This document shows, piece after piece, positions 9,055 to 11,315 of a stretch of DNA of 11,315 nucleotides. The stretch is taken from NCBI GenBank assembly GCA_903839795.1, contig CAIMDR010000152.1:1-11315 (forward strand), read 5' to 3'. Source of the stretch: an uncultured Methylococcaceae bacterium. GTDB lineage: Bacteria; Pseudomonadota; Gammaproteobacteria; Methylococcales; Methylomonadaceae. The translations under genes and the position numbers were made by a program. The notes below the pieces were generated by a model. That model did no database searches, was not told the origin of the DNA, and saw only the letters and a program-made list of their open reading frames with translations. Numbering within the stretch: the first letter of the stretch is position 1; the number at the start of each line of letters is the position of its first letter.

Positions 9055-11151
9055 ATGCCCACTTACCAACTGTTCGCCACCACGCCCAAGGCGATGGAAA
9101 CCATTCTTACCGAAGAACTTCAAAGTCTCGGCATCACCAACATCAAAGTCACCATGGCCGGTGTCGCCTTTCAGGGTGACCTGGAAACTGCTTATCGGGC
9201 GTGCTTATGGTCCAGAACCGCCAACCGGATTTTACTGGTGTTAAGCTCGTTTGAGGTAAAAACGCAGGAAGATCTCTACAATGGCGTGCAACAAATCAAT
9301 TGGTTTGAGCATATTAACGCTGATGATACGTTTGCCGTTTCGTTCAGCGCAAAAAACTCGGAGGCTATTAACAACACCCATTTTGGCGCATTAAAAGTTA
9401 AAGATGCCATTGTTGACCAGATGCGGGACAAGTTTCAACAACGCCCCAGCATCAATACCGAACAACCTAATATTCGTATTAACGTTTATTTAAACGGCGA
9501 AATCGCCCAGCTTAGTTTGGATTTATCCGGTGAAAGTCTGCATCGTCGCGGCTATCGGGATGTCAATATACAAGCCCCCATGAAAGAAAACCTTGCCGCT
9601 GCAATGCTGTTACGTTGCGGTTGGCCCGAAATCGCCAAACAAAACGGCTCTTTGATAGATCCGATGTGCGGTTCGGGAACGCTATTACTGGAAGGCGCAA
9701 TGATCGCCGCAGATTATGCCCCCGGCCTGTTACGTGATTATTTTGGTTTTATAGGCTGGAAAAAACACGATGCAGACTGCTGGAAAAAATTACGCACTGA
9801 AGCCCTGCAACGCAGAAAAGCAGGTATGGAAAAACTCCCTGTTATGGTCGGCTTTGATCAAAATCGTCACACCGTCAACGCGGCTTTAACGCACATAGCC
9901 AATGCCGGACTGCAAAATAAAATTCATGTTGAACGTCGTGACATTGAGGATGCAGAGCCTGCTGAAAGCTGGACACCCGGCTTATTAATCTGTAATCCGC
10001 CTTACGGTGAACGTTTGGGGGATGAGCAAGAAACCGCCGAACTGTACAAGAAATTCGGTGAATCACTAAAAGCGCATTTTATCGGCTGGAAAGCCGCGAT
10101 GATTATCAGTAATCCTGAATTGGGTTTTCGTTTGGGAATACGCTCACAAAAACCAATTACTCTTTATAACGGTGCGCTGGAGTGTAAACTGCTACGTTTT
10201 AATATCGAAGAAAGCAGTTTTTTTATTCCTAAAGCAAAAACACAGGAAGAACGCATTGCTCAGGTCATTGCGATCAGCAAAACCGAACCGCCGGTTGTTG
10301 TTGCTGAAAAGGTTGCGCGTGTAGAAAAAGCACTCAAGCCGGACACTGAAAGCCGTATTGACAAAGAGACCGGCAAAGCGAAAGCGCCAATAGCAGAAGT
10401 TGTCGCCCATAAAGAAGACAGCAAGATTGGAGCAATAGAATTTGCCAATCGACTAAAAAAGAATTTAAAAAAACTGTCCAAATGGGCCAGGCAAAACGGG
10501 ATTACCTGCTATCGTGTTTACGATGCCGATTTACCGGAATACGCTGCTGCGGTTGATATTTATCAGGGCGCGGAAACCTGGATTAATGTTCAAGAATACG
10601 AACCGCCTAAAACCATTGATCAACACAAAGCCGATCAGCGCTTGGCCGGATTACTCGCAGAAATACCGCAGGTATTGGGTGTTGACAGCGATCATATTTT
10701 CTTAAAAATACGCAGAAAACAAAGAAGCACTGACCAATACGAAAAACACGGCGAGTTGGGACGCTTCCATACCATTGAAGAAGGTGGCTGCAAGTTATTG
10801 GTTAATTTTGAAGATTATCTGGACACCGGTTTATTTCTGGATCATCGGCCCATTCGGATGCTAATTCAGCAACAGGCCAACAACAAACGCTTTTTAAATT
10901 TGTTTGCTTACACCGGCAGTGCCACTGTCCATGCCGCAATGGGAGGCGCAACGTCAACCACTACGGTAGACATGTCCAATACCTATACGGAATGGGCCAA
11001 AAACAACATGGCTCTGAATAAAAACACCGGAGAGCATGAGTTTATTCAAACTGACTGTCTGGAATGGCTGGCAAATGAAGCCAAAAAAGCCGCAGATGTC
11101 CGGCAATATGATTTAATCTTTCTTGATCCGCCTACGTTCTCAAATTCATAG
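9055..11151 (+). CDS. rlmL: Bifunctional 23S rRNA methyltransferase RlmKL, amber-interrupted
   Basis: In E. coli, RlmKL makes m2G2445 (RlmL half) and m7G2069 (RlmK half) in 23S rRNA. The 698 residues before the stop match this family. A THUMP-type RNA-binding region (about 45-160) leads to the RlmL domain with DPMCGSGTLLLEGAM (202-216) and NPPYGERLG (314-322). After a lysine/glutamate/alanine-rich linker (about 392-460) comes the RlmK domain: NRLKKNLKKLSKWARQ, DYLDTGLFLDHR, FLNLFAYTGSATVHAAMGGA (613-632) and DPPTFSNS (691-698). A TAG then replaces the expected Lys of SNSKRMED, and family sequence continues in the same frame. If TAG terminates, the RlmL half is complete but RlmK loses its last strands. 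The ATG at 9055 gives the normal family N-terminus but has no clear ribosome-binding site. It follows the FKBP gene after an 80-base hairpin spacer. Confidence 0.9.
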   Translation: MPTYQLFATTPKAMETILTEELQSLGITNIKVTMAGVAFQGDLETAYRACLWSRTANRILLVLSSFEVKTQEDLYNGVQQINWFEHINADDTFAVSFSAKNSEAINNTHFGALKVKDAIVDQMRDKFQQRPSINTEQPNIRINVYLNGEIAQLSLDLSGESLHRRGYRDVNIQAPMKENLAAAMLLRCGWPEIAKQNGSLIDPMCGSGTLLLEGAMIAADYAPGLLRDYFGFIGWKKHDADCWKKLRTEALQRRKAGMEKLPVMVGFDQNRHTVNAALTHIANAGLQNKIHVERRDIEDAEPAESWTPGLLICNPPYGERLGDEQETAELYKKFGESLKAHFIGWKAAMIISNPELGFRLGIRSQKPITLYNGALECKLLRFNIEESSFFIPKAKTQEERIAQVIAISKTEPPVVVAEKVARVEKALKPDTESRIDKETGKAKAPIAEVVAHKEDSKIGAIEFANRLKKNLKKLSKWARQNGITCYRVYDADLPEYAAAVDIYQGAETWINVQEYEPPKTIDQHKADQRLAGLLAEIPQVLGVDSDHIFLKIRRKQRSTDQYEKHGELGRFHTIEEGGCKLLVNFEDYLDTGLFLDHRPIRMLIQQQANNKRFLNLFAYTGSATVHAAMGGATSTTTVDMSNTYTEWAKNNMALNKNTGEHEFIQTDCLEWLANEAKKAADVRQYDLIFLDPPTFSNS

Positions 11152-11315
11152 CGGATGGAGGATGTATTTGACATACAAAATGATCATGTACAACTCATCA
11201 AAAATGCCGTGACACTATTGGCACCTGAAGGCATTTTATATTTTTCTACCAATTTCAGACGTTTTAAAATTGATAGTTCCGGACTGTCCGAATTAACCGT
11301 TGAAGATATTAGCGC
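11152..11315 (+). pseudogene. rlmL: C-terminal RlmK remainder after in-frame TAG (runs off window)
   Basis: Read in the same frame as the preceding gene, this encodes [16 protein letters not shown], then [19 protein letters not shown], and continues open for 54 codons to the window edge. These match the stretch that follows DPPTFSNSK in E. coli RlmKL (RMEDAFDVQRDH ... LLRAGG). No frameshift is needed; a single AAG-to-TAG change would explain the break. The ATG at 11155 has no ribosome-binding site, so separate initiation is unlikely. The coding pattern looks intact, which suggests a recent change, a read error, or decoding through the stop. Confidence 0.75.

Follow-up and report, generated by a model that had tools for sequence, protein, structure and literature searches.

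An in-frame amber codon in rlmKL of a fragmented Methylobacter-like MAG most likely reflects an assembly error or one strain's mutation rather than a new reading of the genetic code

Results

The rlmKL gene at the end of the contig carries an in-frame TAG

The window analysed here is the entire contig CAIMDR010000152.1 (C152), 11,315 bases, from a fragmentary Methylobacter-like MAG (G000; 748 contigs, 3,559,868 bases, 83% complete). An open reading frame that starts at position 9055 of the plus strand encodes 698 amino acids, and the TAG at 11149-11151, which reads ttctcaaattca TAG cggatggaggat with its flanks, lies in this same frame. The parts of the gene are as follows.

9055..11151, plus strand: rlmKL up to the in-frame stop, 698 aa; the RlmL half is whole and the RlmK half is broken within its methyltransferase domain (NF008748, Pfam)
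11149..11151, plus strand: in-frame TAG at the Lys of DPPTFSNSK (from the sequence; the codon in relatives is AAG or AAA)
11152..11315, plus strand: the rlmKL frame continued for 54 codons to the contig end (NF008748 positions 627-680; match to the relative's locus L033)

The presence of this TAG in the assembled sequence is confirmed. The protein encoded before the TAG matched the NCBIfam model for RlmKL, NF008748, over positions 3-625 of 704 (860.9 bits, cut-off 466), and the 54 amino acids past it matched positions 627-680 (65.8 bits, E 2.3e-18), so that the TAG occupies exactly one family position, 626. The open frame therefore halts at position 626 of 704, while the remainder stays in frame to position 680, where the contig ends. 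In Pfam, RlmL_1st (77.4 bits), THUMP (66.9 bits) and UPF0020 (148.3 bits) were matched above their cut-offs, and Methyltrans_SAM was also above its cut-off but partial (60-207 of 286). Hence the N-terminal RlmL part, with its ferredoxin-like domain, THUMP domain and UPF0020 methyltransferase, is present over the curated cut-offs, and a complete RlmK methyltransferase domain does not fit into a single open frame. A reading of the sequence alone (the sequence-only reading) had placed the TAG at a conserved lysine of rlmKL with family-like frame on both sides, and these matches bear it out.

The gene shares its domain order, and its sequence up to and past the stop, with RlmKL (YcbY), the bifunctional 23S rRNA m7G2069 / m2G2445 methyltransferase (E. 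coli structures 3v97 and 3v8v). The closest full-length relative among the matches listed, P0001, has 97% identity across the query, and its alignment to the E. coli RlmKL chain runs through the same DPPTFSNSKRMED motif. Unlike RlmKL as described by YcbY and NF008748, the gene on C152 has TAG in place of one lysine codon, and its 3′ end is missing at the contig end.

The stop is private to this sequence

We examined 87 rlmKL loci of relatives, from two collections that overlap partly in genomes. The motif was found in 81 of them and was absent from the search result in six (L013, L039, L076, L080, L084 and L087). Among the 81, the codon at the site is AAG in 40 and AAA in 41, and none has a stop there; the count accepted any codon at the site, so it could have shown one. 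A stop conserved among relatives was not seen in these loci. The named records closest to the MAG belong to Methylobacter and other Methylococcales and are chiefly MAGs; LinL3_bin-0689 comes nearest (93% in the best segment).

At the protein level, the site is Lys in 180/180 relatives (a partly redundant set made up of the 81 loci plus 99 of the 120 listed proteins), in an alignment that is blind to a stop at the site since frames were cut at stops and loci were picked by the Lys-containing motif with two substitutions allowed. Over the columns of this alignment that are at least 90% conserved, the TAG is the sole private residue of the protein, which gives 1 private residue in the 49 such columns that lie at most 250 nt from the contig end and 0 in the 435 elsewhere. 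Lysine also occupies the site in all 13 protein relatives that were inspected, and no protein as short as 698 aa occurred among the 120 matches listed, of 7,999 candidates scored in the protein search.

The sequence after the stop is intact and soon reaches the contig end

After the TAG, 155 of 164 bases are identical to L033, the nearest named relative; seven of the nine differences fall at third positions (five silent, two replacement codons). Before the stop, the alignment with L033 has 1,967 identities, 124 mismatches and 51 gap positions. Relaxed selection is not in evidence downstream of the stop, and an old pseudogene is disfavoured because no decay is seen past it. The sequence-only reading was right that the downstream part shows no decay; as a pointer to the cause it carries less, since a base error or a very recent allele fits the intact sequence as well as recoding does.

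A feature absent from that reading is the nearness of the contig end: C152 stops at 11315, 166 nt past the first base of the TAG. The gene at L033 extends 67 nt further, and by this measure the last 67 nt of rlmKL are missing from C152. Along L033, the end of C152 is followed after 165 nt by the next match from the same MAG, contig C195; the 3′ end of rlmKL falls in this assembly gap of about 165 nt. DNA searches of G000 gave no second version of the C152 end and no second copy of rlmK. In the protein search for such a copy in the MAG, the sole matches were C152 itself and a stretch of 36% identity on contig C2, a paralogue of a kind that many relatives show too.

TAG terminates genes normally in the MAG

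Among 64 gene ends examined in the MAG, 37 are TAA, 19 TGA and 8 TAG, each of the eight TAG ends being at most 2 codons away from the reference end. TAG is therefore neither rare nor absent as an ordinary terminator, which weighs on reassignment and less on weak suppression. The sequence-only reading had pointed to other conserved genes with in-frame TAG and to amber-suppressor tRNAs as possible signs of recoding, and neither turned up: the survey described below, of 28,559 codons (2.4% of the assembly), contained no other in-frame TAG in conserved genes and yielded two TAA codons instead, and none of the 13 tRNAs recovered with RF00005 from this 83% complete MAG has a CTA anticodon. A search by CTA pattern gave 10 hits, and the eight of these examined as loci hold no tRNA. 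As a control, the reversed pattern gave 27 hits, which shows that the pattern hits are chance.

No match to release factor 1 (RF1, prfA) passed the cut-off in G000, at 83% completeness; of the 35 genomes in the genus search, G000 included, 27 have one that does. Of RF2, named by eye, G000 retains no more than a C-terminal piece, which lies at a contig edge. The RF1 miss in G000 is most simply an assembly gap. A similar shortfall was seen in G023, rated 100% complete in 950 contigs, where only a 33-residue end piece matches RF1; both shortfalls are probably assembly gaps.

If the TAG were read as an amino acid, by an amber suppressor tRNA, by reassignment or by local recoding, a full RlmKL would be made, and both the family-like frame past the TAG and the RF1 result in the MAG would agree with this. 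The ordinary use of TAG as a terminator, the mixture of stop types among the interior stops, the lack of a CTA tRNA among those recovered and the stop-free site in the relatives' loci all speak against it, and we regard such reading of the TAG as very improbable. Reassignment is disfavoured by the normal terminators and mixed stop types; for a suppressor tRNA, neither the pattern nor RF00005 gave a candidate in this MAG, which yields few tRNAs. A weak amber suppressor or tolerated readthrough in a strain of this methanotroph, with RlmL produced in full and RlmK in small amounts, is formally possible because RF1 was not found and few tRNAs were recovered, and is hardly to be expected.

Other interior stops in the MAG also lie near contig ends

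We surveyed interior stops by aligning relatives' open reading frames to pieces of the MAG; 1.2 Mb of the complete relative G019 and the loci of further relatives supplied these frames. The survey covered 78 pieces (434,314 bases, roughly one eighth of G000) and aligned 28,559 codons, about 86 kb. The contigs are not a random sample: some were taken by number (plus C195), others had turned up in earlier searches, and searches brought in another 17 pieces, including C312, which was found via the C160 stop described below. The 12 residues nearest to either gene end were excluded, and with them the stops on L230, L235 and L170. Six stops then lay within alignments, of which three proved to be artefacts: C490:2874 is upstream of the gene's open frame, and C111:7718 and C111:8000 are antisense to an 885-codon open frame. 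The three kept stops are the following.

C152:11149: TAG, 166 nt from the contig end, in rlmKL
C124:6072 (L245): TAA, 61 nt from the contig end, in a DEAD-box-helicase-like gene (named by eye)
C160:3190 (L185): TAA, 213 nt from the contig end, in a TPR-protein-like gene (named by eye)

At the C124 site, eight of 12 relatives' loci were matched and have CAA (seven) or CAG (one); at the C160 site, all five loci matched, of seven, have AAA. Codons within 250 nt of a contig end make up 1,055 of the 28,559 (3.7%), a total that still includes the artefact alignments, and all three kept stops lie in this zone. A narrower count that leaves out two artefact alignments (25,106 codons) has three stops in 844 codons at most 250 nt from an end and none elsewhere. 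By our own arithmetic, the chance that the two stops that were not preselected both lie so near to ends is 3.7% squared, about 1 in 700, with a 250-nt limit that was picked after the distances were seen. The identity to the reference genes is 0.843 at less than 100 nt from a contig end, 0.899 at 100-250 nt, 0.858 at 250-500 nt, 0.872 at 500-1000 nt and 0.847 beyond 1000 nt; since it does not drop near the ends, no generally high error rate shows there. The 25,106-codon survey contains a double alignment on C149.

Contig ends overlap in slightly different versions

The TPR-like gene of C160 recurs, open, on the end of contig C312 (L261, residues 19-509). Where the two ends overlap, 344 of 362 bases are identical, and at the codon that is TAA in C160, C312 has AAA (lysine). 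The 18 differing bases lie in 18 codons, of which 15 changed silently and three did not, one of the three being TAA versus AAA. The next copy that G019 has of this gene shares only 40% identity, so that two close copies per genome are not expected. A second pair of ends, from C144 (L170, 15661-15999) and C146 (L172, 4386-4724), overlaps over 339 nt with 97.3% identity. From such overlaps, the MAG appears to be a composite of close strains, with the contig ends as its least reliable places.

Discussion

Base errors and strain mixing at contig ends are a known kind of fault in fragmented MAGs, and the rlmKL stop resembles it in several ways: it is a private stop, 166 nt from the end; the other surviving stops also lie near ends and are of another type, giving two kinds (TAG and TAA) in all; and ends of the MAG overlap in slightly different versions, at 95-97% identity. 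It is known here from the assembled sequence, in which a base error and a strain allele look alike. We consider it most likely that the TAG is an assembly error or one strain's mutation, not a new reading of the genetic code. Of the four options given in the sequence-only reading, a nonsense mutation and a sequencing error thus stay in play, the latter in the favoured form of an error at the contig end, while suppression by a mutant tRNA and recoding recede.

On balance we lean towards a wrong consensus base near the contig end. The TAG would then be no functional feature, but a wrong base at a thinly supported end of a fragmented, strain-mixed MAG, let in perhaps by low read depth or by a strain switch. 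Against such an error, the identity to reference genes does not fall towards the ends, and three stops are few, one of them being the finding itself. By our own arithmetic, random errors would have to run at about 1.6% for two unselected stops to arise in 1,055 codons, with 0.5-1% within sampling noise. The C160/C312 differences, mostly silent, also resemble natural strain variation, so the TAA there, and likewise the TAG of rlmKL, may represent an allele that really exists.

A genuine nonsense mutation of recent origin, carried by the sampled strain or by a single strain within the population, is a close second to the consensus error and a serious possibility, if somewhat short of an even chance. 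The chain would end at residue 698, RlmL would be active, perhaps more weakly, RlmK would be lost, and the 23S rRNA is predicted to be without m7G2069. The intact downstream sequence is what a very recent event would leave, and the MAG mixes close strains. Loss of RlmK would moreover be tolerated, to judge from E. coli, in which the two domains of RlmKL can work as individual enzymes, the K domain enhances L activity, and a single rlmKL knock-out has a very small growth defect (PMC11194073). Such an allele was nevertheless unseen in the relatives' loci where the site was found and in the protein relatives inspected, no listed protein is as short, and a mutation would not be expected to sit close to a contig end, as this stop and the two others do.

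If the stop is real, the RlmL half is kept and RlmK is broken within its methyltransferase domain, just past DPPTFSNS; RlmK would be lost and RlmL probably kept, with m7G2069 lost and m2G2445 kept, perhaps at a reduced level. The gene would then offer a naturally occurring split between RlmL and RlmK activity, of use in studying the role of m7G2069. For fragmentary MAGs in general, a private stop near a contig end in a conserved gene calls for a check for end error and strain mixing ahead of any proposal of gene loss or recoding.

In addition, one or more dispersed repeats of about 150-200 nt, approximately 88-93% identical, were observed on contigs C107, C147, C306, C596, C69, C435, C483, C388 and C569, and similar sequence also occurs downstream of rlmKL in L033.
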